Shown piece by piece: positions 38,969 through 60,639 of a stretch of 64,000 bases of DNA. Under the pieces are notes generated by a model, which made no database searches, was not told the origin of the DNA, and worked only from the letters and a program-made list of their open reading frames with translations. Source of the DNA: Streptomyces sp. P9-A2 (lineage in GTDB: Bacteria > Actinomycetota > Actinomycetes > Streptomycetales > Streptomycetaceae); NCBI RefSeq assembly GCF_036634175.1, contig NZ_JAZIFX010000001.1, forward strand, positions 6,200,001 through 6,264,000, given 5' to 3'. Made by a program: the position numbers and the translations under genes. Numbering within the stretch: position 1 is the first letter of the stretch; each line of letters opens with the position of its first letter.

Positions 38969-39727
38969 TCAAAACGAAAGACTCTGGTCCTCCACGGACA
39001 CGCGGGCCCGCGCCCCCGTCCCCACCGGAGCCGCGGCCGGGACCGCCACGGCGGTGAGCAGCAGGCCCCCTTCGACGTGCCAGCGGCCCGTGTAGTGGGC
39101 CGTGACGCCGCCGGCCCCGGCCGGGGTTCCGTCCTCAGGGCGTCGCCGCGCCGGGGGCGGCGGCGTGCGGTCCGAGCGGACCTCGGCCGTCAGCCGGCCA
39201 CCGGTTGTGAAGGCGACCGCGACGGCGCCCGTGCCGATCCACTGGCGGGTGGCCGGGTACCAAGCCTTGTAGACGGCTTCCTTGGCGCTGAACAACAGCC
39301 GGTCCCAGGGTAGTTCGGGGCGCTCCCCGGAGAGCCGGGCCACCATCCGCCGCTCGCACTCCGACGCGATCAGACCGAGGACGCCGTGCTGAAGGGGGAG
39401 CGCGGGTTCGGCGTCCACGCCGAGCGCCGCCCACACCTCCGCGCGCGCCGCCACCGCCCCCCGGTACCCGACGCAGTGGGTGAGGCTGCCGACGAACCCG
39501 GCGGGCCACGCCGGGGCGCCGCCCGCCGTGCGCAGCAGCGGCCCGGGCGGCGCCCCGAGGACGTCCAGACAGCGGTGGGCGCAGGCGCGCGCAGCGGTGA
39601 ACTGCCGGACGACCCGGTCCGGCCGGCCCCGTACGAGGGCGAGTTCCCGGCGGTCCGGCAGGTGGGGGAGCGCGTCGTCGAAGGCCTCCGCCCCGGCGAC
39701 CCCTGCCGGCAGGAGCCGCTCGATCAC
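38969..39727 (-). CDS. Sfp-type 4'-phosphopantetheinyl transferase
   Basis: 252 residues from a GTG at 39725-39727 that overlaps the stop of a small upstream frame by 4 nt. Diagnostic blocks are AGFVGSLTHCVGYRGAVAAR (substrate entry), ALGVDAEPALPL (Mg2+-binding GVDxE) and LLFSAKEAVYKAWYPATR (catalytic W/F-SxKEAxYK). It transfers phosphopantetheine from CoA to carrier proteins. Two are encoded in this cluster, the ACP at 45733 and the prolyl carrier protein at 54335, so it is most likely their dedicated activating enzyme. Confidence 0.93.
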   Translation of the reverse strand: MIERLLPAGVAGAEAFDDALPHLPDRRELALVRGRPDRVVRQFTAARACAHRCLDVLGAPPGPLLRTAGGAPAWPAGFVGSLTHCVGYRGAVAARAEVWAALGVDAEPALPLQHGVLGLIASECERRMVARLSGERPELPWDRLLFSAKEAVYKAWYPATRQWIGTGAVAVAFTTGGRLTAEVRSDRTPPPPARRRPEDGTPAGAGGVTAHYTGRWHVEGGLLLTAVAVPAAAPVGTGARARVSVEDQSLSF

Positions 39728-39960
39728 GGTGCGCCCACCGGAGTGAGCCGCGGAGCCGCGCCGTGCAGGGGCTGCGGTGTGCCCGCCCGCACGAGACGCG
39801 GTCCGTCGGCTCCTGCGGTACAGGGCGCGTCGACCCGTACGAGATCCGGCACACCGGCCTGGACGGGGAGCGCCCGGCCGTCCCGTACCCGGCGCTGCGC
39901 ACCGCCCCTCGTACCGATCGCCGCACTGCCCACGAGCACACCCGGCGCGCGGGCCGTCAC
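39724..39960 (-). CDS. Small unassigned frame coupled to the PPTase gene
   Basis: 78 residues from a GTG at 39958-39960. No motif, membrane segment or family is recognised (GVLVGSAAIGTRGGAQRRVR, LPVQAGVPDLVRVDAPC). The reason to list it is its stop, which overlaps the PPTase GTG as GTGA, the pattern used between real genes here. It could equally be a chance frame. The gap from 39961 to the hydrolase stop at 40085 holds nothing else. Confidence 0.3.
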   Translation of the reverse strand: MTARAPGVLVGSAAIGTRGGAQRRVRDGRALPVQAGVPDLVRVDAPCTAGADGPRLVRAGTPQPLHGAAPRLTPVGAP

Positions 39961-40084
39961 CCCGTTCCCTCGACCGGTCGGTGTCCTGCGCGGAGCCTCC
40001 CGGGCGCAGGGACGGACCCGGATGAGCTCCCGACAGCCGGTCGGGCGGCGCGCCCAGTGGCAGTCGAGCCGGGGAGGGCCCTGT

Positions 40085-40978
40085 TCACCGGGTGCCCGCC
40101 TCTTTCATGCCGCCGGTGTCCCGGGCGCGCCCGCCCACGCGGGCGGCGGTCCGGATGACGGCCTCGGTCACGGCGTCCGGGTCCTCCAAGGGCAGGACAT
40201 GACCGGCGCGGGGGATCGAGGTGAACACGGCGTCCGGCAGCGCGGACGCCAACTCCCGTCCCAGCTCGGGCCGGATGACCCGGTCGGACTCGCCCGCGAG
40301 GACCGCGGCGGGCAACCGGACCTCGGCCAGCGCGGCCCGCAGGTCCATGCCCCGGGAGGTACGGAAGCAAGCAGCCCGCACCTGCGGTGTGGTCGCGGCG
40401 AACACCTGCCGGTTGACCTCGCGGAGCCGGGGGGCCAGTGACGTGCCCGTCATCTGCCCCAGCAGGGCCCGCCCGAGGCCCGGTCGGCGCAGGGCCCACG
40501 AGAAGAGCGGCGCCTCCATCATGCGGGCCTCCTTCTCCGGGGTGTCCTGATCATGCGCGGCCGAGGCGACCAGGACCAGGCCCACCGGACGGGCCCCGGG
40601 CTCGGGTGCCGCGGCCAGCGCGAGCGCGGCGAACCCGCCGCCGGAGTGCCCGACGACGAGCGGCGTGCCCCCTGCGTGATGGACGACCGCCGCCAGGTCC
40701 GCGTTCATCGCCTCGGTGGTCACCTCCGAGGCGCCCACGGTGGAGGCGCCGTGGCCACGCAGGTCGTAGGCGACCACCGGGAAGCCGCTCCGCAGCAGCC
40801 GGTCGGTCACCGGGCTCCAGATCCGGCGGCTGCCGCCCCAGCCGTGCGCGAGCACCACCACGGGCCGGTCCTCGGCGCCCCGCTCCAGCGGCTCCAGGAC
40901 GGAGACTGCCAGCCGGGCCCCGTCCTTCGTACGCAGGAACGTCTCGCCGGGGGCGGGAGCCGGAGCGGGCCCGGTCAC
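40085..40978 (-). CDS. Alpha/beta hydrolase
   Basis: 297 residues from a GTG that overlaps the SRPBCC stop by 4 nt. The fold is clear: VVVLAHGWGGSRRIWSP (oxyanion), VAYDLRGHGAS, nucleophile in PLVVGHSGGGFAALALA, aspartate in AGESDRVIRPE and histidine in IPRAGHVLPLEDPDAV. There is no signal peptide. Its place in the leftward arm of the biosynthetic cluster suggests hydrolysis of an ester, lactone or thioester intermediate, perhaps the ester formed by the Baeyer-Villiger-type enzyme two genes upstream. A role as an editing thioesterase is the alternative. Confidence 0.9.
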   Translation of the reverse strand: MTGPAPAPAPGETFLRTKDGARLAVSVLEPLERGAEDRPVVVLAHGWGGSRRIWSPVTDRLLRSGFPVVAYDLRGHGASTVGASEVTTEAMNADLAAVVHHAGGTPLVVGHSGGGFAALALAAAPEPGARPVGLVLVASAAHDQDTPEKEARMMEAPLFSWALRRPGLGRALLGQMTGTSLAPRLREVNRQVFAATTPQVRAACFRTSRGMDLRAALAEVRLPAAVLAGESDRVIRPELGRELASALPDAVFTSIPRAGHVLPLEDPDAVTEAVIRTAARVGGRARDTGGMKEAGTR

Positions 40979-41487
40979 CGGGAGACTTCCGGGGCCGGGG
41001 CGGCGGGGGCCGCCGGCGACGGCGCGGCGGACAGCAGACGGCTGAGCCGCGCGAACGCCGCGCGCGTGGCGCGGGTGTGCTTCGCGTCCATGTCCACGAG
41101 GTTCGCCAGGACGGCGAGCGCGCCGTGCGGCTGGGCCCGGAAGCGCATCGCGAGCCGGGTACCGCCGTCGTCGAGCGGGGCGAGGGTGAACTCCGCCGTG
41201 CCCCGGAACGCCCCCTCCACGTACTTCAGGGCCAGGCGCCTGCCAGGTTCCACAGCGGTCGTGCGCGCGGTGAACCGGATCTTCTTGCCCCCTTTGTCCA
41301 CGCCCTTGGTGTGGACGGTGACCCGGGTGAGCGCGCCCACCCGGGCCGGGGTGCCGTTCACCGGCTCGAAGGTGTTGTCCGGCACCCACCACCGGGCGTC
41401 GCCCGCGAGTTCGCCCATCAGGGCCTCCCAGACAGCGCCCGGACCGGCGGCGAGCAATGCCTCGTCGACCAGGTCGTATCTCTTCAA
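40975..41487 (-). CDS. SRPBCC (START-like/polyketide cyclase) protein
   Basis: 170 residues. The helix-grip fold is indicated by the N-terminal MKRYDLVDEALLAAGPGAVW, the WWVPDNTFEPV segment, a run of alternating beta strands (TRVTVHTKGVDKGGKKIRFT, FRGTAEFTLAPLDDGGTRLA) and a long C-terminal helix. Such proteins bind hydrophobic molecules or assist cyclisation in polyketide pathways. It lies 67 nt after the flavin oxidase gene and is coupled to the hydrolase. Ligand unknown. The Ala/Pro-rich tail looks disordered. Confidence 0.8.
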   Translation of the reverse strand: MKRYDLVDEALLAAGPGAVWEALMGELAGDARWWVPDNTFEPVNGTPARVGALTRVTVHTKGVDKGGKKIRFTARTTAVEPGRRLALKYVEGAFRGTAEFTLAPLDDGGTRLAMRFRAQPHGALAVLANLVDMDAKHTRATRAAFARLSRLLSAAPSPAAPAAPAPEVSR

Positions 41488-41554
41488 CTGCTCTTCCTCC
41501 TCATGGGATCGACGGTGACGGGCCGCCCTCGAAGGGCGGCCGGGCCGTGCTCGG

Positions 41555-43063
41555 TCAGCCGAAGAAGCCCTGGCCGGGGGTGAGAACGTTGCCGGGGTCG
41601 AAGCGCTGCTTCGCCTTGCCCAGCGTCTTGTAGGAGGTGCCGAAGTGGCGGCGCCAGTCGTCGGTGGTGAGGTTCGGCACCGCGCCGACGAGGTAGCGCT
41701 TGGCGCCCATCGCCACCGCCCGGTCGTACAGCCAACGGTTCTGCTGCATCATGCGGTCGATGTCGGCGGCTCCGGTGCCCGGGTGCGGGAAGCGCAACAG
41801 GTCGAAGAGGTAGCCCACCCGGTCGTCCGGCTGGACGGCCATGGGCGCGGTGACAGCGGAGGTGAGGTACGGGTAGCTCAGCAGCACGCCCGCGCCCAGA
41901 TCGTCCGGTGCCAGTTCGCCCTCCACCATGCGCAGGAAGCGCGCGGCCGAGGAGCGCGGCAGGAACAGGCTCAGCCAGGGCTTGGGCTGGGCCCAGTGTC
42001 CGGCGTCCTTCAGATACGCCTCGAAGCCGTCGAGACGGAAGAGGTAGTCGCGCAGCGCGTAGTCCTCGATGAGCGCCTCGGCGCGCAGGTCCTTGAGGCC
42101 CCTCAGCAGCCGGGCGCGGTCCGGGACGCGGCCGCCGGAGTACGTGGCGACCGCCTCGATCTTGTAGCGCCATCCCGAGTCGTCCGGCCGCCGGACCATC
42201 TCACCGCCCTGCATCTGGAAGCGGTGGTCCGCCAGCAGGATTTCGGAGTCCTTCATGAAGGCGGCGACGTTGTCGTAGAGCAGGCTGAAGACGGTGGCGC
42301 GTTCGGCGGCGGGCACGGTCCGCAGGGTGACCTGGACGATGACGCCGACCTGTCCGCCGCCCGCCAGCGCGGTGCGGAACAGTTCGGGCTGACGGCTCGG
42401 TGAGGTGGTGACGACCTCGCCGGTGCCCGTCACCACGACCAGCGACTGCACGGTGTCGGCGATCAGACCCTCGGTACCCATGGTCAGGCCGATGCCGCCG
42501 ACGCTGAGGGTGCCGCCGACGGAGAGCGGCAGGTAGTCGGGCAGGGCGGGAAGCGTACGGCCCCGGAGCAGCAGGTGGTCGGTGATCTCCGCGAACGTCG
42601 CGCCGGCCTCGACGGTGATCGAGGCGGAGCCGGTGGACAGGATGCGCGCCATGCCCCGGGCGTCCACCGCGATGCCCCCGGGGACGGCGGCCTGGCCGTA
42701 GCAGGAGTGGGACTCCAGGTCCCCGCCGGTGCCGCTGCGGCCGCTGACGGCGAGCTTGAGCTTGTTGGCCCGGGCGTAGCGGATCATCACGGCGATGTCC
42801 TGGACCGAGCCGGGGGTGAGCACCGCCCATGGAACCGTGCCCGTCACCAGACGGCCGAAGTCGTGGGAATAGGAGCCGAACTGGGAAGTGTCGGTGGTGA
42901 GGGTGCCGTCGAGGTCGGGCACGGGCACGACGCGGTCGCCGGTGCGTCGGGCGGTGTCGGCGGCAAAGGCCCAGCTTCCGGTGGTGGCGTTCCAGCCGAT
43001 CACGGCGGCGGCGGCGCCCACCGTGCCGAGGACCGCTCTGCGGGAGGGAGTGTGCAGGTTCAT
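41555..43063 (-). CDS. Secreted or Tat-dependent FAD oxidase/dehydrogenase, cytokinin-dehydrogenase-like
   Basis: 502 residues. TPSRRAVLGTVGAAAAVIG at residues 5-23 is a twin-arginine-like signal. The PCMH FAD domain follows, with SHSCYGQA (H119) at the place where cytokinin dehydrogenases carry the GHSxxGQA flavin-linking histidine, LPLSVGGTLSVGGIG (about 180) and GQVGVIVQVTLR. The C-terminal substrate domain ends LGKAKQRFDPGNVLTPGQGFF, the usual end of the family. It could oxidise an amine or aromatic C-N bond of the pathway product outside the membrane. True cytokinin activity is possible but not implied by context. Confidence 0.85.
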   Translation of the reverse strand: MNLHTPSRRAVLGTVGAAAAVIGWNATTGSWAFAADTARRTGDRVVPVPDLDGTLTTDTSQFGSYSHDFGRLVTGTVPWAVLTPGSVQDIAVMIRYARANKLKLAVSGRSGTGGDLESHSCYGQAAVPGGIAVDARGMARILSTGSASITVEAGATFAEITDHLLLRGRTLPALPDYLPLSVGGTLSVGGIGLTMGTEGLIADTVQSLVVVTGTGEVVTTSPSRQPELFRTALAGGGQVGVIVQVTLRTVPAAERATVFSLLYDNVAAFMKDSEILLADHRFQMQGGEMVRRPDDSGWRYKIEAVATYSGGRVPDRARLLRGLKDLRAEALIEDYALRDYLFRLDGFEAYLKDAGHWAQPKPWLSLFLPRSSAARFLRMVEGELAPDDLGAGVLLSYPYLTSAVTAPMAVQPDDRVGYLFDLLRFPHPGTGAADIDRMMQQNRWLYDRAVAMGAKRYLVGAVPNLTTDDWRRHFGTSYKTLGKAKQRFDPGNVLTPGQGFFG

Positions 43064-43123: not shown

Positions 43124-44635
43124 TCAGGAAGCGGTGTGCGCGGGGGCGCGCAGATCCTCGCTGGTGCTCAGCAGGTGCTCGGCCGGGTCGAAGCGGCTGG
43201 TGGCCCGCCGGAAGCGCCAGGTGTAGGTGGGCCAGATCGAGGGGTTGCGCCCGTGCTCGTCGAGGTACCAGCTCCGGCAGTTGCCCGCGTTCCACACGGT
43301 GCCCTCAAGCCGCTGGTCGAGTCGCTCGTTGTACGCCCGCTGGGCCTCGGGGAGCACCTCCACGCAGGCCAGCCCGCGCTTGTTCATCATCTTCAACGCG
43401 TCGAGGACGTAGGCGATCTGCGCCTCGATCATGATCACCTGGGAGGAGTGGCCCAGGGTCGTGTTGGGGCCGAGCATCATGAAGAGGTTGGGGAAGCCGG
43501 CGACACCGGTTCCGCGCAGGGCGCTCATGCCCTCGCTCCATGTCTCCTCGAGGCTCACACCGTCCCGTCCGAAGAGGCGTTCCGCGATCGGCCGCTGTAC
43601 GGCTTCGAAGCCTGTCCCGAGGATGATCGTGTCCACCGGCCGCTCCTGGCCGTCGGCCGTGACCACCGCGTCGGCCGTGACCTTGGCGATGCCGTCGGTG
43701 ACCAGGTCCACGTTGGGCTGCTGGATCGCCGGGTAGTACGTGTTGGAGAAGAGCAGGCGCTTGCAGGCCAACACGTAGTCGGGCGTCAGCACGGCCCGCA
43801 GCCGCTCGTCCGGCACGCTCGTCTTCAGGTGGTCGGAGGCCATCTTCTGCATCTTCGCGGCGACGGCGGGGCGCGCCATGACGAAGGCGAGGATCTCCCG
43901 GCCCCACATGTTGAAGTTCCGCCGGAAGCGCTGGTAGCCGGGCACGGAGGTCAGCAGCTTCGTCTGCAGGGCGCTGTTGACCTTGTCGTTCTTGGGCCCG
44001 ATCCAGGGCGGGGTGCGCTGGTAGAGGTCGAGGTGGCCGACCTCCGGCTGGATGGCGGGCACGAACTGGATGGCGGAGGCGCCGGTGCCGACCACGGCGA
44101 CCCGGCGGCCGGTGAGGTCTACGTCATGGCGCCAGCGGGCGGAGTGGAAGACCTCGCCCTGAAAGTCGGCCAGGCCCGGGATGTCGGGGATGGCGGGTTC
44201 GCTGAGGTAGCCGGTGCCGGTGACGAGCACCTGGGCTGTGTAGTCCCCGCCCGTGGTGGAAATCCGCCAGCGCTTGCGCAGGTCGTCCCAGCGCGCCTCG
44301 GTCAGCTCGTGCCGGAAGCGGATGCGGGAGCGCACGCCGAACTCGTCGGCGCAGTCGCGCAGGTAGGCGAAGAGCTCCTGCTGCTTGCCGAAGGTGCTCT
44401 TCCAGCGGGGGTTCGGCGCGAAGGAGAAGGAGTAGAGGTGCGACATCACGTCGCAGGCACAGCCCGGGTAGGTGTTGTCCCGCCAGGTGCCGCCGACCTC
44501 GTCGGCCCGTTCGAAGACGAGGAAATCGTCGATGCCCTGCTGGAGCAGCCGGATCGCCGTTCCCAGCCCCGAGAAGCCGCTGCCGATCACCGCCACCCGC
44601 AGGTCGCGTGCGGAGTCCGGAAATGTCTCGGTCAT
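43124..44635 (-). CDS. Baeyer-Villiger-type flavin monooxygenase
   Basis: 503 residues from the ATG at 44633-44635. Two Rossmann motifs (VIGSGFSGLGTAIRL at residue 15 and VVGTGASAIQFVPAI near 180) flank the family fingerprint FQGEVFHSARWRHD. EVGGTWRDNTYPGCACDV is the conserved FAD/NADPH loop. Such enzymes insert oxygen next to a ketone or oxidise N or S atoms. The gene starts 5 nt after the methyltransferase stop and precedes the oxidase, within a six-gene leftward unit. A tailoring role on the cluster product is likely. Confidence 0.92.
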   Translation of the reverse strand: MTETFPDSARDLRVAVIGSGFSGLGTAIRLLQQGIDDFLVFERADEVGGTWRDNTYPGCACDVMSHLYSFSFAPNPRWKSTFGKQQELFAYLRDCADEFGVRSRIRFRHELTEARWDDLRKRWRISTTGGDYTAQVLVTGTGYLSEPAIPDIPGLADFQGEVFHSARWRHDVDLTGRRVAVVGTGASAIQFVPAIQPEVGHLDLYQRTPPWIGPKNDKVNSALQTKLLTSVPGYQRFRRNFNMWGREILAFVMARPAVAAKMQKMASDHLKTSVPDERLRAVLTPDYVLACKRLLFSNTYYPAIQQPNVDLVTDGIAKVTADAVVTADGQERPVDTIILGTGFEAVQRPIAERLFGRDGVSLEETWSEGMSALRGTGVAGFPNLFMMLGPNTTLGHSSQVIMIEAQIAYVLDALKMMNKRGLACVEVLPEAQRAYNERLDQRLEGTVWNAGNCRSWYLDEHGRNPSIWPTYTWRFRRATSRFDPAEHLLSTSEDLRAPAHTAS

Positions 44636-44640
44636 GCCCG

Positions 44641-45525
44641 TCACCCCTTGCGGACCAGCGTGAGCCGGAAGTTGTTGAAGAAGCGGTCCTCCAGCGTGTA
44701 CGCGAAGATGTCCAGGTAGCGCTCGAAGCGGGCCACCACCTCCTCGTTCTCCAACGCGACCGCCTCGTCGCGCCGTTCGGCGAGCCGGCCCAGCCAGGCG
44801 CGGCACGCCCGCGCGAACGCCTCGCGCTCGTTGACCAGTTCCACGACCTCGAACAGGCCCTCGGCGCCGGCCGCCAGCTCGTGCAGGTGCGGGATGTGCA
44901 TCCCGGTGAACTCGGAGCGCTGGAGGAACTTCAGGTCCGCCAGGATCTTGCGGCCGATGGGCTGGGCCTCGGCGGTCATCGTGTGCAGCACGAACCGGCC
45001 GTCCGGCACCAGTGCCTCGTGCACCTGCTGGAAGAAGAAGCGGTAACGCTTGGTCCGCTCCTTCGGAGGGAGGCTGGAGGGGACGAAGTGCTCCAGGGCG
45101 TTGACGCAGAATGCCGCGTCGTACGCGCCGGGGGCGTGGTGCTCCGACCAGCTCTCGACCCGGGTGGTGACGGCCGGGTTGCCCAGATCCGCGATATACG
45201 CCGCCTGGGTGCGGCTCAGAGTGAGGCCGACGGCCTCCCGGACGCCGTGCTTCGTCGTCAGGCGGTGGACGAGGGTGCCCCAGCCGCATCCGATGTCGAG
45301 CACGCGGTCCTTCCCGGCCGCGTGCGCCAGGTCGGCGAACACGTCGAGCTTGCGTTCCTGCGCGACGTCCAGGGCCTCGACCAGGCGCTCACCCGGCTCC
45401 CAATAACCCCCGCTGTACATCATGCTGGGGCCGAGCAACAGTCGGTAGAACTCGTTTCCCACCTCGTAGTGGTGGCGGACGGCGTCCACCTCCGGCTCCG
45501 CGGTGTGGGAGGCAATCGTCGCCAT
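44641..45525 (-). CDS. Cyclopropane-fatty-acid-synthase-like SAM methyltransferase
   Basis: 294 residues from the ATG at 45523-45525, preceded by GAGGAGAGG. It has the CFAS-type opening VRHHYEVGNEFYRLLLGPSM and MMYSGGYWEPG, then SAM motif I VLDIGCGWGTLVHRL and FCVNALEHFVPSS. It ends DRFFNNFRLTLVRKG, as CFA synthases do. These enzymes methylenate double bonds of acyl chains, or C-methylate activated alkenes. It is the first gene of the leftward arm and directly faces the ACP operon, so its acceptor may be an unsaturated acyl intermediate of the cluster. Confidence 0.88.
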   Translation of the reverse strand: MATIASHTAEPEVDAVRHHYEVGNEFYRLLLGPSMMYSGGYWEPGERLVEALDVAQERKLDVFADLAHAAGKDRVLDIGCGWGTLVHRLTTKHGVREAVGLTLSRTQAAYIADLGNPAVTTRVESWSEHHAPGAYDAAFCVNALEHFVPSSLPPKERTKRYRFFFQQVHEALVPDGRFVLHTMTAEAQPIGRKILADLKFLQRSEFTGMHIPHLHELAAGAEGLFEVVELVNEREAFARACRAWLGRLAERRDEAVALENEEVVARFERYLDIFAYTLEDRFFNNFRLTLVRKG

Positions 45526-47737: not shown

Positions 47738-47759
47738 GACGGGACCCGCGGCGATGAGT

Positions 47760-52695: not shown

Positions 52696-54200
52696 CCGAC
52701 CGACACGGCGAGACCGCCGAGGCCGTCCTGCGCTGGGCCGAGAAGACCCCCGACGCCCCCGCCCTGTGGTGGAACGGCACCGCCACCACCTACCGCGAGC
52801 TGGCCGGCGAGACCGCCGCCGCCCGCGCCCGTCTCGCCGGGCATCTCCCCGCCGGCGCCACGCTCGCGGTCCTCGACACCAAGGCGCCCCGGACCGTCGC
52901 CACCGTTCTCGCCTGCCTCGTCTCCGGCCACCCCGTCCTGCTCCCCTCGCCCACGCTGCCGCGCGACCACCTCGCCGCCGTGACCGCTGAGGCGGGCTGC
53001 GGGTACACCCTGACGGGGGAGACCGTCACGGCTCTGCCCCCGCAGCCCGGTGACGCCCGCAAGCAGGCCGTCCCGCCGGGCACCGGTTTCGTCCTGACCA
53101 CCTCCGGGTCCACCGGAACACCCAAGGCCGTCCCCCTGCCCCACGACGGCGTGGACGCCTTCACCCGCTGGGCCGCCGACGCCTTCGGTATCACCGAGGG
53201 AACCCCCGTCCTCAACTACGCTCCGCTCAACTTCGACCTGTGCCTGCTCGACGTGTGGACCACGCTCGCCCACGGCGGCCAAGTCGTGCTCGTGGACCCA
53301 GCGGTCGCCGCCAGTGGCCCCCGCCTGGTCGGCCTGCTGCGCGCCCACCGGATCGAGGTGGTCCAGGCGGTACCGCTCTTCTACGCGCTGCTCGCCGCCG
53401 CCGCGCGGGCCGAGGGAGGCGGCCCGCTGGAGACCATGCGCCATGCGGTCTTCACCGGGGACGTGATGGCCGAGCGGCCCCTCGCCGACCTCACGGCCCT
53501 CGCCCCGGGCGCGCGACTGCACAACGTCTACGGCTGCACCGAGACCAACGACAGCCTGATCCACGAGGTCGACCGGGACCGGCCGCTGCCCTCCCCGCCG
53601 CCGCTGGGCCGCCCGCTGCCGGGCGTGCACGTCCGGCTGCGGGACTCCGAGGGCCGCCTCGTCACCGGCCGGGGCGAGCTGGAGGTCTCCACGCCCTTCC
53701 AGAGCACCGGCTACCCCGACCGGCGACGCACCGCCGAGAAGTTCATCACAGACCCGGCCGACGGCTCGGACGAGGGGGTGCGCTGGTTCCGTACCGGCGA
53801 CCTGGTCGAGGCCGACGCCGACGGGGTCCTGCGGCTCGTAGGACGCCTCGACCATCAGGTGAAGATCAGGGGCGTCGCCGTCAACACCGCCGAGGTCGAG
53901 CAGGTGATGCTCGACCACCCCGACGTCGTGGAAGCCGGGGTGACCACCCTGCCCGACCCCGTCGAGGGCCGCCGCCTGGTCGCCGTGGTCCGGCTGGAGC
54001 GCGACTCGACCGCGACCAGCCTCGACCTCAAACGCCATTGCTCCGCCCGGCTGCCACGTGGTTCGGTGCCCGCCACCCTCGTTCCCGTACGCGAGCCTCT
54101 GCCCCGTACCAGCACCGGGAAGGTGGACCGCCGGGCCTTGGCCGCGCTCCGCCCCGCCGCGCCCCAGGCGCCGGCCATGTCGGTCGGCACCCGGTCCTGA
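52692..54200 (+). CDS. Stand-alone adenylation enzyme, probable L-prolyl-AMP ligase
   Basis: 502 residues from an ATG overlapping the MaoC stop. ANL motifs: A3 VLTTSGSTGTPKAVPLPH, A4 LNYAPLNFDLCLLDVWTTLA, A5 NVYGCTETNDSLIHEVD, A7 WFRTGDLVEADADG, and a C-terminal lysine in LPRTSTGKVDRRAL. The FDLCLLD and YGCTETNDS blocks resemble those of prolyl-AMP ligases such as PltF and RedM. The neighbouring carrier protein and dehydrogenase complete the known three-protein route from proline to pyrrole-2-carboxyl-PCP. Proline specificity is therefore well supported, but inferred. Confidence 0.87.
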   Translation: MTDRHGETAEAVLRWAEKTPDAPALWWNGTATTYRELAGETAAARARLAGHLPAGATLAVLDTKAPRTVATVLACLVSGHPVLLPSPTLPRDHLAAVTAEAGCGYTLTGETVTALPPQPGDARKQAVPPGTGFVLTTSGSTGTPKAVPLPHDGVDAFTRWAADAFGITEGTPVLNYAPLNFDLCLLDVWTTLAHGGQVVLVDPAVAASGPRLVGLLRAHRIEVVQAVPLFYALLAAAARAEGGGPLETMRHAVFTGDVMAERPLADLTALAPGARLHNVYGCTETNDSLIHEVDRDRPLPSPPPLGRPLPGVHVRLRDSEGRLVTGRGELEVSTPFQSTGYPDRRRTAEKFITDPADGSDEGVRWFRTGDLVEADADGVLRLVGRLDHQVKIRGVAVNTAEVEQVMLDHPDVVEAGVTTLPDPVEGRRLVAVVRLERDSTATSLDLKRHCSARLPRGSVPATLVPVREPLPRTSTGKVDRRALAALRPAAPQAPAMSVGTRS

Positions 54201-54334: not shown

Positions 54335-54598
54335 GTGAGCAACGCCGACCAGATCAGCGAGTACATCGTCCGGGAGTTCCTGCCCGACCTCACACCCTCC
54401 CAACTGCCGTACGACCAGAACCTCCTGGGCGACGGCGTCATCGACAGCCTCGGAGTCCTCAAGTTGATCGCCTGGGTCGAGCACCACTTCCAGCTCGCCG
54501 TCGGCGACACCGACCTCGACCCGGACAACTTCCGCAGTGTCCAGGCCATCGACGCCTACATCGCCCGTTCCCGGGGCGCCTCCGTCACGGGTAGCTGA
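54335..54598 (+). CDS. Prolyl/pyrrolyl carrier protein (PltL/RedO-like)
   Basis: 87 residues from a GTG with AAGGAG six bases upstream. The sequence EFLPDLTPSQLPYDQNLLGD, then GVIDSLGVLKLIAWVEHHF with the phosphopantetheine serine near residue 38, and LDPDNFRSVQAIDAY, is the characteristic pattern of carrier proteins that hold proline for oxidation to pyrrole. It starts 134 nt after the ligase; the gap contains several short CCGTACG/GTACGAACAC-like repeats of unknown role. It ends just before the TrpD-like gene. Confidence 0.92.
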   Translation: MSNADQISEYIVREFLPDLTPSQLPYDQNLLGDGVIDSLGVLKLIAWVEHHFQLAVGDTDLDPDNFRSVQAIDAYIARSRGASVTGS

Positions 54599-54601
54599 GC
54601 C

Positions 54602-55633
54602 GTGCACCCCGCTCTCGTCCCGCTCGTCGACCGGCGTGCCCCGGCAGACGCGGACAACTGGGACACGCTGTGGCAGGCACTGGCCGACGGAGCGCTGGAC
54701 CGCGCCGACGTCCTCGCCCTGCTCGCCTCGCTCACCGCTGCGCTCCCCGACGGCCCGAGCCTGCTCACGCTCCTCGACTCGCTGGACCGGCGCCGCCCGG
54801 CCCCGCCGGCCGTGCCCTGGCCCGGCACCGTCAACGTGGTGGGCACCGGGGGCGGGCCCCCGACCGTCAACCTCTCCACGGCGTCCGCCCTGGTGGCCGC
54901 CGCCACCGGCGTCCGGGTCGTCAAGTCCGGTTCGCGCGCCCACACCGCGCGGACGGGCTCGGTCGACCTCCTGGACCGCCTCGGCGTCCCCCTCACCTCC
55001 TCCCTCGATCACACCGCCGACCACCTGGCCGCGCACGGCATCGCCTTCACCGGCCCGTTCGTCTACCCCGGCCAGCTCGCCCGGCTCGCGCTGCTCGCGG
55101 TCCCCACCCCGATGCGGGTCTTCGGCCGCTTCCTCAACACCCTTGGCCCCTTCCTGGCCGTCGTCCCCGTGGCCGCCCAGGTCACCGGGGTCTCCGCGGC
55201 CGAACCCCCGCCCCCGCTCCGCACCCTCGCCGCCCGGCCCGGCGGCCCCGTGACCTGGCTGACCACCAACGCGGCGGGCGCCGACGAACTCCTCAGCGTC
55301 ACCGACAACACGATCCACCTCCCGGGCGGCGACACGCGCATGCTCCGGGCGGGCGAACTGGTCCCTTGTGAGGGCACTCTCGACGACCTCGCCCCCGTCT
55401 CCCGGGAGGAAGCGGCCGACCACTTCCGGACCGTCCTGACCGGCCGGGCGGGCGCCCCGCTGCGCGCCACCCTCCAGCTCAATGCCGCCGCGCTCGCCGT
55501 CGCATCCGGCCACCGCGACGACTGGGCCACGGCCGTCGCCGAAGCCGGCGCCGCGCTCGACGACGGGGCCGCGCTCGGACTGCTGGAACGCCTCACCACG
55601 ACCCGCGCGCGAGGAGTGAGCCGCGTTGGCTGA
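54602..55633 (+). CDS. Anthranilate phosphoribosyltransferase-like protein (TrpD family)
   Basis: 343 residues from a GTG 3 nt after the carrier protein. The PRPP-binding GTGG loop (NVVGTGGGPPTVNLSTASAL) and VRVVKSGSRAHTARTGSVDL, equivalent to the KHGNRAxSSxxGSADxLE block, place it in the TrpD family. Several conserved positions differ (no D after GTGG, T in place of the second S), so the amine acceptor may not be anthranilate. Primary-metabolism TrpD is normally encoded elsewhere. This copy is in a biosynthetic operon between a carrier protein and a TrpA-like gene. Confidence 0.82.
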   Translation: MHPALVPLVDRRAPADADNWDTLWQALADGALDRADVLALLASLTAALPDGPSLLTLLDSLDRRRPAPPAVPWPGTVNVVGTGGGPPTVNLSTASALVAAATGVRVVKSGSRAHTARTGSVDLLDRLGVPLTSSLDHTADHLAAHGIAFTGPFVYPGQLARLALLAVPTPMRVFGRFLNTLGPFLAVVPVAAQVTGVSAAEPPPPLRTLAARPGGPVTWLTTNAAGADELLSVTDNTIHLPGGDTRMLRAGELVPCEGTLDDLAPVSREEAADHFRTVLTGRAGAPLRATLQLNAAALAVASGHRDDWATAVAEAGAALDDGAALGLLERLTTTRARGVSRVG

Positions 55634-56459
55634 GTTCACCCAGAGGTTCTTCGGCGAGGCACGCGCCCGCGCCGAACTGGGCCTGGCCGTCTTCCTGAAC
55701 GCCGGGGACCCGCCCCTGTCCGTCCTCAAGGACTGCGTCGCCATGCTGGACGAGTCGGGCATCGGCTGCCTCGAACTAGCCGTCCCCTTCCCGGACTCGC
55801 CCACCGACGGGCCCGTCGTACGGCGCTCCGCGGACCGGGCGCTCGCCGAAGGTGTGGGCCTCGCCGAGACCCTGGCCTTCGTCGCGGCCGTACGGCCATC
55901 CCTGAAGCGCCTGCGCATAGCCCTGCTCGCCGACTGGAGCCACACCCTGCGCACCGCGCCACCGACCGACTACGCGCGGGCCGTGGCGGACAGCGGTGTC
56001 GACGCCCTGCTCGCCCACGGTCTGCCACCCCGGCTGCGTTCCGCCCACCACGAGGCGCTGCGCGAGGCCGGACTGCCCGAGGTCACCACCTGCTACCCGG
56101 CGAGCCCCCCGGCCACGGTGACCGATGCGGCGGCCCACGCCACCGGCTACCTCTACCTGATCGCCCGCTACGGTCGCAGCGGCAGCGGCACGCCCTCCGC
56201 CGGCCACGCCGGACTGGCTCCGGTCGTCGGTTTTCTGCGTGACCTCACAGCTTCCCCGATAGCCGTCGGCTTCGGGGTGTCGACCGCCGAGGACCTCGCC
56301 TCCGTCGCGCTGAGCGGCGCGGACGCGGCGATCGTCGGTTCCGCCGGGGTGGCGGTGATGGAGCGGGCCCGCGAGACCGGGGCGGACCCGGTCGACGCCT
56401 ACCGCTCCTTCATCGCCACCCTCACCACAACCCCCACGTGCCGAGGAGGATATCCGTGA
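55626..56459 (+). CDS. Tryptophan synthase alpha-like lyase (TrpA family)
   Basis: 277 residues from a TTG at 55626 overlapping the TrpD-like stop by 8 nt. The two catalytic acids of TrpA are kept: E50 in GIGCLELAVPFPDS and D61 in PTDGPVVRRSAD. The barrel end SPIAVGFGVSTAEDLASVAL and GADAAIVGSAGVAVMERARE is typical. With no TrpB partner encoded here, it would resemble plant BX1/IGL, which cleave indole-3-glycerol phosphate to free indole. A retro-aldol role on another glycerol-phosphate adduct is an alternative. It is coupled to the next gene by a GTGA overlap. Confidence 0.85.
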   Translation: MAEFTQRFFGEARARAELGLAVFLNAGDPPLSVLKDCVAMLDESGIGCLELAVPFPDSPTDGPVVRRSADRALAEGVGLAETLAFVAAVRPSLKRLRIALLADWSHTLRTAPPTDYARAVADSGVDALLAHGLPPRLRSAHHEALREAGLPEVTTCYPASPPATVTDAAAHATGYLYLIARYGRSGSGTPSAGHAGLAPVVGFLRDLTASPIAVGFGVSTAEDLASVALSGADAAIVGSAGVAVMERARETGADPVDAYRSFIATLTTTPTCRGGYP

Positions 56460-56830
56460 TCATCCGCCAGCTCGAGAACGCCAAGACCGTCGAATGGGGC
56501 AACGGCCTCAGCCGCCGCTTCATCGTGGAAGCCGACGGCCTGGGCTACAGCATCACCGACACCATCGTCCTGGCCGGAACCAAGTCCCGGTTGCAGTACC
56601 GCAACCACCTGGAGACCTGCTACTGCATCGAGGGCTCAGGGGAGGTCGTGGAGTTCGACGGCACGAGCCACCCACTGAGACCGGGCGTCCTGTACTCGCT
56701 GAACGATTACGACCCGCACTATCTGATCGCCTCACCCGACGAGGACATGCGGCTGGTCTGCGTCTTCGCCCCCGCGCTCCAGGGCGACGAGGTCCACAAC
56801 CTGGACGAGAACGTCTCGTCGGCCTACTAG
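56456..56830 (+). CDS. Ectoine-synthase-like cupin (EctC family), orphan
   Basis: 124 residues from a GTG behind GAGGAGGA (56443-56450). The pattern VIIRQLENAKTVEWGNGLSR, ITDTIVLAGTKSRLQYRNHL, ETCYCIEGSGEVVEF, RPGVLYSLNDYDPHYLIA is that of EctC. The iron-ligand positions known for ectoine synthase (Glu, Tyr, His) correspond to E53, Y80 and H88 with the same Tyr-His spacing. EctC closes a ring by intramolecular imine formation. No ectA or ectB is nearby, so it probably catalyses a cyclocondensation on a pathway intermediate such as an aminoketone. Confidence 0.85.
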   Translation: MIIRQLENAKTVEWGNGLSRRFIVEADGLGYSITDTIVLAGTKSRLQYRNHLETCYCIEGSGEVVEFDGTSHPLRPGVLYSLNDYDPHYLIASPDEDMRLVCVFAPALQGDEVHNLDENVSSAY

Positions 56831-56970
56831 GGCGTGCCGGACGCCGCGGGGCAGGCGGGACTTTCGAAACACGCCCCAGCCGACCGGTTCAGCGGGCGAC
56901 CAGGTCGTCACGCATCCCCCGCCCGTAACCGACCGAGGCCACCCGCACGGCCCGTACGGAAGGCTCCGCA

Positions 56971-58116
56971 GTGAGGCACCGCAACGAAGATCAGCAGGCG
57001 CTGAGCGCAGGCATGGCCCAGTGGGGCAAGGCCCTCAGCGAAGGACACGTCGAGGCGGACGCGCGGTCCGCCTTCGACCCGGCCCGCTGGCGGCTGGTGA
57101 GTGGGAGCGGGGTGCTGGGGCTGCCCTTCCCCGAGCGGTGGGGCGGCGCCGGCCAGTCCCTCGTCACCACCCTCCACGTCCTGGAGACCCTGGGCGAGAC
57201 CTGCCGGGAGACCGGCCTCAACTTCTGCGTGACGACCTCGATGGCCAGCACCGGGGTGCCGCTCGACGCCTTCGGAACGGACTCCCAGCGGGAGCGCTTC
57301 CTGCCGGGAATCTGCTCCGGGGAGCTGATCGGCGCCCACGCCATCACCGAACCCGACAGCGGCTCGGACGCGATGGCGATGACCACCCGGGCCGAGCGGG
57401 ACGGCGCGGACTACGTGCTCACCGGCGGCAAGGCGTTCGTCAGCAACGGTCCGATCGCCGACGTCTTCGTCGTCTACGCCCGTACCCACCCCGACGGCGG
57501 TCCGCTCGGGACCACCGCCTTCCTCGTCGAACGCGGTACGCCCGGCCTCTTCGTGGGCGAGCCGACCGCCAAGATGGGCCTTCGGACCGCCCCGTTGTCC
57601 ACCCTGCACCTCGACGGCTGCCGGATCCCGGCCGACCGCGTCCTCGGCCGGGCAGGCGGCGGGCTCCTCGTCCTCGACCACGTGATGAAGCGCGAGATCC
57701 TCTTCGGCTTCACCGTCGGCCTGGGCGAGATGCGCCACCGGCTGGGGCGCGCCGTCGCCTACGCGCGCGAACGCCGCGCCTTCGGCCACCCCATCGGTGA
57801 CTACCAGGCGGTCTCGCACCGAGTGGTCGACATGAAGATCCGCACCGAGACCGCCGCGAAGTGGCTGTACGACACCGCCGAGCGGCTCACGGCGGGGGAG
57901 GACGTCACCGCCGACCTCGCCATCACCAAGATCCTCGCCAGCGAGGCCGCCCTGTCCACCAGCCTCTCGGCGATCCGCGTCTTCGGCGGCGCGGGCTACC
58001 TCTCCGAGGCCGGCCTGGAGAAGGACCTGCGCGCCGCCGTCGCCGGCACCCTCTACTCCGGCACCAACGACATCCAGTACAACCGGATCGCCTCGACCCT
58101 GGGGCTCGGGGGATGA
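56971..58116 (+). CDS. Acyl-CoA-dehydrogenase-family enzyme, probable prolyl-PCP dehydrogenase
   Basis: 381 residues from a GTG with GGAAGG seven bases upstream. The flavoprotein pattern is complete: CSGELIGAHAITEPDSGSDA, AFVSNGPIADVFVVYARTHP, ERRAFGHPIGDYQAVSHRVV and LYSGTNDIQYNRIA. The usual late glutamate (YEGT) is replaced by YSGT. A glutamate in VMKREILFG (E242) lies where isovaleryl-CoA dehydrogenase and prolyl-PCP dehydrogenases such as PigA carry the base. This supports oxidation of prolyl-PCP to pyrrolyl-PCP, in line with the ligase and carrier protein upstream. Confidence 0.88.
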   Translation: MRHRNEDQQALSAGMAQWGKALSEGHVEADARSAFDPARWRLVSGSGVLGLPFPERWGGAGQSLVTTLHVLETLGETCRETGLNFCVTTSMASTGVPLDAFGTDSQRERFLPGICSGELIGAHAITEPDSGSDAMAMTTRAERDGADYVLTGGKAFVSNGPIADVFVVYARTHPDGGPLGTTAFLVERGTPGLFVGEPTAKMGLRTAPLSTLHLDGCRIPADRVLGRAGGGLLVLDHVMKREILFGFTVGLGEMRHRLGRAVAYARERRAFGHPIGDYQAVSHRVVDMKIRTETAAKWLYDTAERLTAGEDVTADLAITKILASEAALSTSLSAIRVFGGAGYLSEAGLEKDLRAAVAGTLYSGTNDIQYNRIASTLGLGG

Positions 58117-58922
58117 GCGCACCGCACCGGTCCGGCCTGCCGCCGGGGCACCGGCCGCTGCTGAAGGTGTGCGGGGCGACCCGCGTCGAGGAGGCCACCG
58201 CTGTCGCCGCGCGGGCCGATCTGGTCGGCCTCTGGTACGGCGTCGAGGGCGGCGCCCACGACCTGCCCGCCGCCCTGCCCGAGCTGGCTGACGCCGTCCG
58301 CGCCGGGGGCCGGGCCGAACCCGTCCTCGTCACCTTCCTGCATGACGCCGACCGGCTCGCGCGGGCGGCCCGGGCCGCCCGCATCCGCTGGATCCAGCTC
58401 CACGCCTACCAGCCGCCCCGGGCCGTCGCCGCCCTGCGCGCCGCGTTGCCGGACGCGGTCCTCGTCAAAGCCGTGCACGTCGTCGACGGGAGTTGCGCCG
58501 AACGCCCTTTCTTCGGGGCCTACGCGCGGGCGGGCACCGACCTGTTCCTCGTGGACGCCGCGACCCCGGGCGGCGGGGTCGGCAGCACCGGCCACCATCT
58601 CCCCCCCGAGGTGCTGGAGCCGCTGCTGCCCGCCCTCGGGCTGTCCTTCCTGCTCGCCGGGGGCATTACCGAGGCCGACGCGGCGCGCGGCCCGGCCCTC
58701 GGGGCGCACCCCGGCTTCCGGGGTGTGGACGTGGACAGTGCCGCCCGGGGCGACGACGGCCTGCTGAGTGCCGACCGGGTCACCAGCCTGGACCGCGCCT
58801 GGACGGGGGCGGACACAGGATCGGGAAGCCCGCCGGGGATTCACGCAGGGGCCGGTCAGAGCGCCCGGTCCCGTACGGACGCCCCTCCCGCATCCATCAC
58901 CCCGCGAGGGAACCTGACATGA
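58113..58922 (+). CDS. Phosphoribosylanthranilate isomerase-like protein (TrpF family)
   Basis: 269 residues from an ATG overlapping the dehydrogenase stop. The general base cysteine is kept in LLKVCGATRVEEATAVAAR (usual KICG). IRWIQLHAYQPPRAVAALR corresponds to VQLHG, the aspartate lies in LFLVDAATPGGGVGSTG, and FLLAGGITEADAAR is the phosphate-binding turn. The C-terminal 45 residues are a Ser/Gly-rich extension not found in normal TrpF (about 205-215 residues). It would perform an Amadori rearrangement of a phosphoribosylamine. The altered motifs leave the exact substrate open. Confidence 0.85.
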   Translation: MSAPHRSGLPPGHRPLLKVCGATRVEEATAVAARADLVGLWYGVEGGAHDLPAALPELADAVRAGGRAEPVLVTFLHDADRLARAARAARIRWIQLHAYQPPRAVAALRAALPDAVLVKAVHVVDGSCAERPFFGAYARAGTDLFLVDAATPGGGVGSTGHHLPPEVLEPLLPALGLSFLLAGGITEADAARGPALGAHPGFRGVDVDSAARGDDGLLSADRVTSLDRAWTGADTGSGSPPGIHAGAGQSARSRTDAPPASITPRGNLT

Positions 58923-59740
58923 CCCAGCCCCTGCCCTTCATCTCCGCGCTCCTCGGCGCCGAGCGCCCCCTGATCATGGAGGTGAAAGCCCGCGACGCGC
59001 ACGGCGGCAACCTGCTGCGGGGCCGCGCCCCCGGCGACCTGGCCGCAGCCTACGAGCGGTCCGGTGCCCCGTGCGTCTCCGTCGTGACCGGCCGGTGGTT
59101 CGGCGGATCGGCCGCCATGCTGACGGAGGTCACCTCCCGGGTCCGCGTCCCCGTGTTGCTCAAGGACTTCGTCACCCGCCGCGACCAGATCGCTGCCGCA
59201 GCCTCGGCGGGTGCCTCGGCGGTGCTGCTGACGGCTGCACTGCTGCCGCGCGAGTCTCTGGAGGGCCTCTCCCGGGAGTGCCAGGAGTACGGCCTCACCC
59301 CCTTCGTCGAGATCACCCGCGCCGAGGAGGCGGCCGGTCTGCCCGACCCGCACCGCTGCGTCATCGCGGTCAACAACAAGGACATCGCGGCCAAGGAACG
59401 CGACGCGGGAGACCTGGACCGCAGCCGGTCCCTGCTGCCCGCCGTACGGGCCGCGGGCACCCTCTGCCCGGTCAGCGCAAGCGCGGTGGGCGGTCCAAAG
59501 GTCGCTGCCGGGCTGCTGGCGGAGGGGTACGCCGCCCTGCTCGTCGGGACGGCGCTCCTTCGCGCGCCCAGCGTGGAGGAGTGGCTGCGTGAGTTCGACG
59601 CCTGCCGCGCCGGGGCCGTCGTGCCGGGGGCGATTCCGGTTCCGACGACCGCCTCCGTATCCTCCTCGGCGCCCGCGACCCCCGCCGAGCCGCCGCTTCC
59701 GGCCGGTCCCGTCGCCGAGGCGGAAGGAGCGCCCGTGTGA
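58919..59740 (+). CDS. Indole-3-glycerol-phosphate synthase-like protein (TrpC family)
   Basis: 273 residues from an ATG overlapping the TrpF-like stop. Counterparts of the catalytic residues are present: E21 and K23 in PLIMEVKARDAHGGN, K82 in VPVLLKDFVTRRDQ, E131 in TPFVEITRAEE and N152 in IAVNNKDI. The hallmark KxxSPSKG is instead KARDAHGGN, and the SESG block is SASA, so phosphate or substrate binding has changed. A Pro/Ala/Ser-rich tail of about 45 residues follows. It may still make indole glycerol phosphate, or cyclise a related Amadori product. Confidence 0.82.
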   Translation: MTQPLPFISALLGAERPLIMEVKARDAHGGNLLRGRAPGDLAAAYERSGAPCVSVVTGRWFGGSAAMLTEVTSRVRVPVLLKDFVTRRDQIAAAASAGASAVLLTAALLPRESLEGLSRECQEYGLTPFVEITRAEEAAGLPDPHRCVIAVNNKDIAAKERDAGDLDRSRSLLPAVRAAGTLCPVSASAVGGPKVAAGLLAEGYAALLVGTALLRAPSVEEWLREFDACRAGAVVPGAIPVPTTASVSSSAPATPAEPPLPAGPVAEAEGAPV

Positions 59741-60639
59741 GCGCCGCACCCATGGAGACCGTCACCACCGGCGGCGTGGAGCGGATCGTGCTGGGACGCG
59801 GCCGCCACCGGCTCGGTGCTTGGCAGGCCGCCTCCGCCACCGGCAGCCCCCGGTCCGTACTCGTCGCGATCCATGGCCGGGCGATGTCCCCGGGCTACTT
59901 CGCCGGACCGGTCGCCCCGCACACCTCCCTGCTCGCCCTCGCCTCCTCCCTCGGCCACACCGTCCTCGCGGTCGAGCGGCCCGGCTACGGCCTCTCCCGC
60001 TCGTCACTCCCGCTCGGGCTCCCCCTGGCCGACCAGGCCCGCCTGCTGCGCCAGGCGCTCGCCGACTACGCCGAACTCCACCCGGTCGGGGCCGGGTTCT
60101 TCCTCCTCGGTCATTCCGACGGCGGCAAGACCGCCCTGTACCTGGCGGGCGAGTCGTGGGGCGAGGCCCCGGCCGAGCGCCTGCTCGGACTCGACCTCAA
60201 CGGCTGCGGCTGGCACTACTCTCCGGCAGCCGCCCACTTCCCCGACACCTTGGGGGGCGGCGCGGGCCGACTCAACTGGGGCCCGCTGCGGCTCTATCCG
60301 GGCGGTACCTTCCGCGCCAGCCGCGTCCTGCTCCGCGACGTCCCGGCCGCCGAGGAGGCCGATACGGCCCTCTGGCCCGCACGCTTCCCGGGCGTCGCGG
60401 CCCGGGTGCGCTGCCCCGTGCGGCTCACCTTCGGGGAGTACGAGGGCTGGTGGTGCCTCGACCGCGACGAACTGGCGGCCGTGGCCGCCTGCTTCACCAG
60501 GACACGTCGGCCCGTGGCCGAACGCGTTCCTGAGGCGGGCCACAACCTCAGTCTCGGACTGGCCGCCCCCCGCTACCACTTGTGCGCGCTGGCGTTCCTG
60601 GAGGAGTGCCTGACGACCGTGCCGACCCCCGTCCGGTGA
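59737..60639 (+). CDS. Alpha/beta hydrolase, thioesterase-like
   Basis: 300 residues from a GTG overlapping the TrpC-like stop, with GGAAGGAG upstream. Motifs: VLVAIHGRAMSPGYF (oxyanion region), VLAVERPGYGLSRSS, the nucleophile in FFLLGHSDGGKTALYLAG, LTFGEYEGWWCLDRDEL and the histidine in VPEAGHNLSLGLAAPR. It is the last gene of the rightward arm and is followed by a hairpin terminator. Likely roles are release of the product from a carrier protein or hydrolysis of an intermediate. Confidence 0.88.
   Translation: MSAAPMETVTTGGVERIVLGRGRHRLGAWQAASATGSPRSVLVAIHGRAMSPGYFAGPVAPHTSLLALASSLGHTVLAVERPGYGLSRSSLPLGLPLADQARLLRQALADYAELHPVGAGFFLLGHSDGGKTALYLAGESWGEAPAERLLGLDLNGCGWHYSPAAAHFPDTLGGGAGRLNWGPLRLYPGGTFRASRVLLRDVPAAEEADTALWPARFPGVAARVRCPVRLTFGEYEGWWCLDRDELAAVAACFTRTRRPVAERVPEAGHNLSLGLAAPRYHLCALAFLEECLTTVPTPVR

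Follow-up and report, generated by a model that had tools for sequence, protein, structure and literature searches.

A kosinostatin-type eight-gene cassette beside an oxoamine synthase in a probable specialised-metabolite cluster of Streptomyces sp. P9-A2

We describe a gene cluster of Streptomyces sp. P9-A2 (genome of 8.39 Mb) that lies in the window, by which we mean the whole stretch of 64,000 nucleotides analysed (positions 6,200,001 to 6,264,000 of contig 1). The conserved cluster spans about 27 kb, at 34.2 to 61.4 kb of the window. One half encodes fatty-acid-type enzymes and an alpha-oxoamine synthase, and the other is a cassette of eight genes, four of them related to tryptophan-pathway enzymes, that has a counterpart in Micromonospora okii TP-A0468, which produces kosinostatin. 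We consider it probable that this is a specialised-metabolite cluster built around a kosinostatin-type cassette, working much as proposed below. The window's proteins were scanned with Pfam and NCBIfam models, a scan that did not cover every open reading frame (ORF). The genes of the cluster are as follows.

34214–35050, plus strand: DUF1772/anthrone-oxygenase-like protein, left edge (Pfam PF08592; 4/4 close relatives)
35279–36037, plus strand: NmrA-like NAD(P)H-binding protein (Pfam; 91–92% in 4/4 close relatives)
36174–36809, plus strand: hemerythrin-domain protein (Pfam; 4/4 close relatives)
36895–37422, plus strand: DUF1772/anthrone-oxygenase-like protein (Pfam; 4/4 close relatives)
37714–38643, plus strand: AraC-family regulator with cupin (Pfam; 87–89% in 4/4 close relatives, two of these truncated at the edge of the fetched stretch)
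38969–39727, minus strand: 4'-phosphopantetheinyl transferase, PPTase (Pfam 4PPT_N, ACPS)
40085–40978, minus strand: alpha/beta hydrolase, ABH1 (Pfam, on the longer ORF 40085–41392)
40975–41487, minus strand: SRPBCC-family protein (no Pfam match of its own; counterparts in L015 and L017, 55–56% identical, are annotated SRPBCC)
41555–43063, minus strand: FAD-linked oxidase (Pfam FAD_binding_4 and Cytokin-bind)
43124–44644, minus strand: FAD/NAD(P) monooxygenase, FMO-like (Pfam FMO-like)
44641–45561, minus strand: CMAS-type S-adenosylmethionine-dependent methyltransferase (Pfam PF02353)
45733–45993, plus strand: small acyl carrier protein, ACP (DSL motif; no Pfam or NCBIfam match; with KAS III and SDR in related loci)
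46005–46988, plus strand: beta-ketoacyl-ACP synthase (KAS) III, FabH-like (Pfam PF08541/PF08545)
46985–47737, plus strand: short-chain dehydrogenase/reductase (SDR), FabG-like ketoreductase (Pfam PF00106/PF13561)
47966–48775, minus strand: Streptomyces antibiotic regulatory protein (SARP)-type regulator, BTAD (Pfam PF03704)
49186–50400, plus strand: alpha-oxoamine synthase, BioF/SPT-like, pyridoxal phosphate (PLP)-dependent (NCBIfam bioF; PDB 3a2b)
50576–51841, plus strand: KAS II, FabF-like (NCBIfam fabF)
51838–52695, plus strand: MaoC-like dehydratase (Pfam PF01575)
52692–54200, plus strand: discrete adenylation enzyme (A), code DLLQVTVDS, cassette gene 1 (Pfam, PDB match, code)
54335–54598, plus strand: peptidyl carrier protein (PCP), cassette gene 2 (DSL motif; NCBIfam ACP at most 40 bits, below cut-offs)
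54602–55633, plus strand: TrpD-like phosphoribosyltransferase, cassette gene 3 (Pfam/NCBIfam, residues)
55626–56459, plus strand: TrpA-like enzyme, cassette gene 4 (Pfam/NCBIfam; catalytic Glu and Asp kept)
56456–56830, plus strand: EctC-like cupin, cassette gene 5 (Pfam PF06339, 125 bits; PDB 5onm, 102 bits)
56971–58116, plus strand: acyl-CoA-dehydrogenase-like (ACAD-like), RedW/PigA-related flavoenzyme, cassette gene 6 (Pfam, NCBIfam, PDB)
58113–58922, plus strand: TrpF-like isomerase, cassette gene 7 (weak Pfam PRAI match, 29 bits; Cys/Asp)
58919–59740, plus strand: TrpC-like cyclase, cassette gene 8 (Pfam IGPS, 117 bits; Glu/Lys/Lys/Glu)
59752–60639, plus strand: alpha/beta hydrolase (Pfam; 4/4 close relatives)
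60889–61386, plus strand: DUF1772/anthrone-oxygenase-like protein, right edge (Pfam; 4/4 close relatives)

The limits of the cluster come from four close relatives (G347, G274, G005, and G272), all of which keep the five genes at 34214 to 38643 and the two genes at the right end, up to 61386. The outer genes at 31539, 61883, and 63009 were not found in the stretches fetched from these relatives. A sequence-only reading of the window had set the interval at 38969 to 60639; the genes inside it are real, but the conserved cluster is wider, at 34214 to 61386. Most of the five left-hand genes are missing or weak in six more distant relatives, the NmrA-like gene being kept in NBC_00536 only and the AraC gene in two. 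On the plus strand, KAS II, the TrpC-like gene, and all genes between them are tightly packed, with several overlaps of 4 to 8 bases. The families named in that reading for the PPTase, KAS III and KAS II, FabG, oxoamine synthase, MaoC, AMP ligase, PigA-related dehydrogenase, and EctC- and trp-like enzymes agree with Pfam and NCBIfam, and both small carrier proteins, each with a DSL motif, lack a Pfam match. As it had also stated, TrpB is not among the scanned proteins and the TrpE domain is absent from the window.

In M. okii TP-A0468 (L131), all eight cassette genes occur in the window's order, with identities of 46, 47, 48, 55, 63, 60, 45, and 54% in that order. If C12 is the contig of L131, a ketosynthase alpha (KS-alpha) gene lies about 7 kb beyond this cassette (C12:76112; 72% identical to S. 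xanthii KS-alpha). Behind it comes another KS-like match (34%), whose aligned part contains one in-frame TGA. The eight genes of S. spiroverticillatus (L099) stand beside KS-alpha (86%) and chain length factor (CLF; 78%) genes. Excerpts of PMC7918784, after Ma et al. 2013, report that the kstB genes load nicotinic acid and turn it into a pyrrole, and that the kstC genes convert the pyrrole and phosphoribosyl pyrophosphate (PRPP) into a pyrrolopyrrole. According to excerpts of PMC13099267, disruption of ksnC3, a putative phosphoribosylanthranilate isomerase gene, abolished kosinostatin; the full kosinostatin cluster occurs in 18 of 34,389 Actinomycetota genomes; the Micromonospora and S. albidoflavus/S. 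spiroverticillatus versions are linked to kosinostatin production; and the modules are more widely spread than the intact cluster.

No KS-alpha/CLF pair is present in the window, where the sole match is KAS II itself (37–38% to KS-alpha and CLF of L064); the cluster is thus not a kosinostatin cluster, though the cassette is shared. Branched-octose genes are absent from the Pfam-scanned proteins of the window, some ORFs lying outside that scan. The sequence-only reading knew of no characterised cluster with this combination of genes; the eight-gene set is in fact known from TP-A0468, and it is for the oxoamine-synthase half that no characterised match was found. What is new is the setting, in which the already published cassette is combined with an oxoamine synthase, KAS III, KAS II, SDR, and MaoC. 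The literature searched describes no product for the oxoamine-synthase cluster, and because most subscription papers fall outside its coverage, this absence is weak evidence.

The cassette recurs as a unit. A scan of 84,980 species genomes with an alignment of TrpA-like proteins gave 85 confirmed stretches, and the best 80, with the window, make up the 81 loci used for counts of order and setting. All eight genes stand in one order (A, PCP, TrpD, TrpA, EctC, ACAD, TrpF, TrpC) in 66 of these 81 loci, window included. Among the best 80 of 85, the eight genes occur in 76, 76, 77, 80, 77, 78, 78, and 76, TrpA-like being present in all 80 by selection. A set of 24 other loci, also picked by the TrpA-like protein, some of them ending at the edge of the fetched stretch, contains the same genes in 22, 24, 24, 24, 24, 24, 23, and 20; four genomes with a TrpA-like hit were left out of it (G309, G320, G330, and G701) and G039 was taken only in part. 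When 392 Streptomyces genomes were queried with both proteins, TrpA-like matched 20, TrpD-like 21, and both 19, and this coincidence led us to reject a chance neighbourhood. The unshared matches are a TrpA-like gene at a contig start (G320), a piece of TrpD-like gene at a contig edge (G050), and a locus with A, PCP, and TrpD only (G151).

The neighbours of the cassette vary. An oxoamine synthase occurs in 13 of the 24 TrpA-picked loci; in eight of the 24 (the cut G039 not counted), none of the three genes oxoamine synthase, KAS III, and MaoC was seen. By a simple rule, the best 80 of 85 stretches divide into 34 with an oxoamine synthase, 5 with KAS II and no oxoamine synthase, 5 with a type II polyketide synthase (PKS), 9 with a nonribosomal peptide synthetase (NRPS), and 27 other or unclear, the last including loci with short flanks or with a PKS beyond the 10 kb examined, such as L131. 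A tree of four cassette proteins, built by a quick method from the 75 of 81 loci that have all four and showing long branches, requires at least 11 changes of setting; L131 falls among the type II PKS loci, and the oxoamine loci do not form one group (5 changes). Within the 392 Streptomyces genomes, an oxoamine synthase lies beside the cassette in 11, including that of P9-A2 itself and a partial copy in G178, and the arrangement also occurs in other genera; decayed copies are found in two further Streptomyces genomes.

Several individual loci deserve mention in their own right. L183, L184, and L185, which include second copies in G129 and G174 with no TrpA-/TrpF-like match and with extra ORFs, as well as the A, PCP, and TrpD remnant of G151, look like decaying clusters. 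NRPS-like genes adjoin the cassette in L016 (S. clavuligerus plasmid pCLA1), as large ORFs that match adenylation domains, and in L080, L086, L098, and L104, as ORFs with a condensation motif; the L016 stretch carries no annotated feature in the genome collection used. Four loci come from alphaproteobacterial records (L101, L115, L119, and L126: Acetobacteraceae, Rhodospira, Azospirillum, and Roseomonas), at least two of which are metagenome-assembled genomes; L119 and L126 have TrpF and TrpC ahead of the other cassette genes. L084, L089, L116, L129, and L142 (Kibdelosporangium, Actinosynnema, and Rhodococcus rhodnii) form one branch with KAS II and MaoC, and no oxoamine synthase was seen in their examined stretches. 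Partial cassettes in L118 and L144 have adenylation, TrpA-like, ACAD, and TrpF-like genes and no PCP, TrpD, EctC, or TrpC match at threshold. L018 (plasmid of Streptomyces NBC_01544) is a different cluster, with a 31% TrpA homologue, a DUF6875 protein, and histidine decarboxylase; a DUF6875 match also occurs in 17 of the best 80 loci.

The oxoamine-synthase half is uniform. Of 14 loci selected because they have the oxoamine synthase, 13 contain the full set of twelve genes, which encode ABH1, SRPBCC, FAD oxidase, FMO, methyltransferase, ACP, KAS III, SDR, SARP, oxoamine synthase, KAS II, and MaoC; the exception, G178, keeps two of the 12 at threshold. The oxoamine synthase has the LSKA lysine and belongs to the BioF/SPT/KBL/ALAS group of PLP enzymes; it scores 378.5 bits against NCBIfam bioF, under the cut-off of 426, and 270 bits against serine palmitoyltransferase (PDB 3a2b). 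KAS II (fabF, 411 bits, under the cut-off of 494) is not of the KS-alpha/CLF type.

Which acid enters the cassette is suggested by its adenylation enzyme, whose code, DLLQVTVDS, matches the DLLQVTLDS of TP-A0468 at eight of nine positions. Residue counts here and below refer to distinct stop-free sequences that cover 60% or more of the query; the window copy is counted among them. In the set of 93 codes, Q, D, and S (positions 278, 330, and 331, in what we take to be the usual numbering) are common to 92, the one odd member (DLTKSGEVG) being probably a neighbouring NRPS domain. The carrier serine is present in 91 of 91 sequences. A kosinostatin-type cassette acting on another acid, and so giving a different PRPP-derived ring, would accord with the mere 46% identity of the two adenylation enzymes and with variation among relatives at positions 299 and 322; we nevertheless think it unlikely, as there is hardly any variation at the remaining seven positions (88–93 of 93) and all eight genes are retained in their order.

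Decidedly improbable, in our view, is a prodiginine-like route, in which proline would become pyrrole-2-carboxyl-PCP, the KAS and oxoamine synthase would form a bipyrrole in the manner of PigJ and PigH, and the trp-like genes would contribute some further part. It draws on the dehydrogenase, whose nearest named families are RedW and PigA and whose PDB neighbour is the prolyl-ACP dehydrogenase 4irn; on the PDB comparison of the adenylation enzyme, in which the proline ligase 6o6e scores well (163 bits), though the nearest entry is a gramicidin synthase domain at 226 bits; and on the presence of an oxoamine synthase and KAS in the window. Against this, both RedM-type controls (two adenylation genes near RedW genes above the RedW family cut-off, 34–36% identical to the window enzyme) read DLFYLALVC, presumably a proline code, and the window code differs from it at seven of nine positions. 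The dehydrogenase scores 369 bits where the NCBIfam cut-off for RedW is 650, and 329 where that for PigA is 500; it is 44–45% identical to the RedW controls and 60% to the TP-A0468 counterpart. The adenylation, carrier, and dehydrogenase genes also accompany trp-like genes, in loci picked by a trp-like gene, even where no oxoamine synthase is visible. By its code, the adenylation enzyme belongs with that of the kosinostatin producer and not with the proline-activating enzymes. Neither the earlier name of prolyl-AMP ligase nor the proposal that this trio makes pyrrole-2-carboxyl-PCP from proline is supported.

For the four trp-like enzymes and the cupin, the roles of the checked residues are presumed from work on the parent enzymes. 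Of 92 TrpD-like sequences, at least 91 have the PRPP/Mg motifs GTGG, N-ST, and DE, although all 92 lack the Asp that follows GTGG in primary TrpD. The KHGNR His and Asn and an Arg, which we take to be the anthranilate contacts of TrpD, are absent from every one of the 92. Glu, Lys, Lys, and Glu occur in every covering TrpC-like sequence (77, 77, 77, and 79 of 79), and the presumed equivalents of the catalytic Glu49 and Asp60 in 97 of 97 TrpA-like sequences; all 90 TrpF-like sequences have the presumably catalytic Cys and Asp, and all 90 EctC-like sequences have Glu/Tyr/His. The TrpF-like match is weak, with 29 bits in Pfam, 48 against the NCBIfam cut-off of 216, and a best PDB E value of 0.029. 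Taken together, the residues suggest chemistry of the PRPP type in which something other than anthranilate is the acceptor. A supply of indole, made by these enzymes from the cell's anthranilate and joined to the rest, is very improbable: the main catalytic residues of the TrpC- and TrpA-like enzymes are kept, the TrpA-like enzyme passes the NCBIfam trpA cut-off (132.5 versus 102.35), and the genome has a primary TrpE, but the loss of the presumed anthranilate contacts makes indole unlikely, the window lacks a TrpE domain, the TrpD-like (115.7 bits versus 199), TrpF-like, and TrpC-like (119 versus 284) enzymes fall under their NCBIfam cut-offs, and the kosinostatin counterparts are reported, in excerpts of PMC7918784, to serve the pyrrolopyrrole. 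The sequence-only reading had offered a pyrrole joined to either an indole or a PRPP-derived ring; the PRPP ring fits the kosinostatin precedent, and the indole is not supported.

The genome has its own primary enzymes elsewhere, each scoring above the window copy: TrpA at 1858864 (255 versus 137 bits), TrpC at 1861318 (263 versus 119), and TrpD at 1979465 (367 versus 115). The TrpE domain occurs at two sites, both outside the window, with the primary TrpE at 1864954, and a primary TrpB was noticed by eye in one ORF of L001. The trp-like genes are thus not the organism's only tryptophan-pathway genes, and the suggestion that they are repurposed stands. Likewise, the EctC-like gene is not the genome's ectoine gene, as a better match lies at 1647419 (177 versus 124 bits) and its neighbours are cassette genes. 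Public annotation of L015, L017, L064, L065, and L066 names cassette genes tryptophan synthase alpha, ectoine synthase, and indole-3-glycerol-phosphate synthase, and calls the TrpD-like gene "hypothetical." These public names are likely misleading.

We propose the following route. The adenylation enzyme would load nicotinic acid or a close analogue onto the PCP, as the kosinostatin reports, the code, and the gene order suggest, and the flavoenzyme and EctC-like cupin may then form a carrier-bound cyclic amidine. By analogy with kosinostatin and from the residues kept, the TrpD-like enzyme would move the phosphoribose of PRPP to an amidine nitrogen, the TrpF-like enzyme would carry out an Amadori shift, the TrpC-like enzyme would close the second ring, and the TrpA-like enzyme would remove glyceraldehyde-3-phosphate to leave a PCP-bound pyrrolopyrrole. 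These steps likely constitute a kosinostatin-type unit. Unlike in kosinostatin, ACP, KAS III, KAS II, SDR, and MaoC may then build a short reduced chain, the decarboxylating oxoamine synthase may condense an acyl thioester with an amino acid to an alpha-aminoketone, and the methyltransferase and flavin oxidases may tailor it; this last stage, in the form given, is tentative and could well run otherwise. The predicted product is an alkaloid that contains a bicyclic amidine, rather than an aromatic polyketide of the kosinostatin type. Formation of a substituted pyrrole from a dehydroamino acid by the eight enzymes was set aside on the kosinostatin precedent.

Several points weigh against this proposal. 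The ring chemistry appears to lean on Ma et al. 2013 at second hand, and excerpts of PMC7918784 doubt the role assigned to KstB7 in 2013. Identities to the kosinostatin enzymes are only 45–63%, so another acid or product is possible, and the nearest named dehydrogenases are prolyl-PCP enzymes. The PRPP site of the TrpD-like enzymes is not unchanged, since the Asp after GTGG is missing (a gap) and the Asp preceding it is replaced by Asn, both in 92 of 92 sequences. The SPS motif has largely disappeared from the TrpC-like enzymes, and their Glu226 (numbering of the genome's own TrpC) is Ala in 78 of 78 covering sequences, so that the reaction may differ from that of indole-3-glycerol-phosphate synthase. 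How the cassette half and the oxoamine half meet is a guess.

A broader reading, which we offer as a possibility with rather less than even credence, is that the cluster makes an undescribed class of alkaloid, in which a PRPP-derived pyrrolopyrrole amidine passes through fatty-acid-type extension and is joined to an amino acid by the oxoamine synthase, and that the amidine-building cassette is portable, serving no fewer than three mutually unrelated types of assembly, in Actinomycetota and in certain Alphaproteobacteria. The double-ring amidine is rare, and the literature searched links it to the quinocycline antibiotics alone; it appears to arise from a compact gene set, recurring next to several assembly systems that are not related. 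The oxoamine-synthase version lends itself readily to a search for its product. It also gives a clear example of enzymes from the tryptophan pathway redirected to a different substrate.

Elsewhere in the window, a short-chain dehydrogenase at 61848–62567 has N- and C-terminal parts that match in different frames, and so is frameshifted or misread. An apparent catabolic and uptake set lies at 2356–13974 (aldehyde dehydrogenase, FAA hydrolase, FAD monooxygenase, dienelactone hydrolase, ABC transporter parts, and amidohydrolase). The genes at 27466–30896 encode glycosidases of families GH43 and GH62, and the GH62 enzyme also has a ricin-B-type lectin domain.

The cluster can be compared with several known systems. 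Scytonemin and hapalindole clusters also hold trp genes, which there raise tryptophan supply. The cassette has in common with the primary tryptophan pathway the protein families TrpD, TrpF, TrpC, and TrpA and a number of their catalytic residues, whereas the window lacks TrpE and the TrpD-like enzyme lacks the presumed anthranilate contacts. With ectoine synthase, the cupin shares the sequence family and the Glu/Tyr/His residues but sits in the cassette. Prodiginine (red/pig) clusters likewise have a discrete adenylation enzyme, a carrier, a RedW-related dehydrogenase, an oxoamine synthase, and KAS, whereas the window has a non-proline code, trp-like genes, and an EctC-like cupin, and misses the RedW and PigA cut-offs. 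The kosinostatin/quinocycline clusters (kst of TP-A0468 and ksn of S. albidoflavus) share the cassette order (as in TP-A0468), the code class, and the main residue losses and retentions; in contrast, the window carries an oxoamine synthase, KAS III, KAS II, SDR, MaoC, a CMAS methyltransferase, and flavin oxidases instead.

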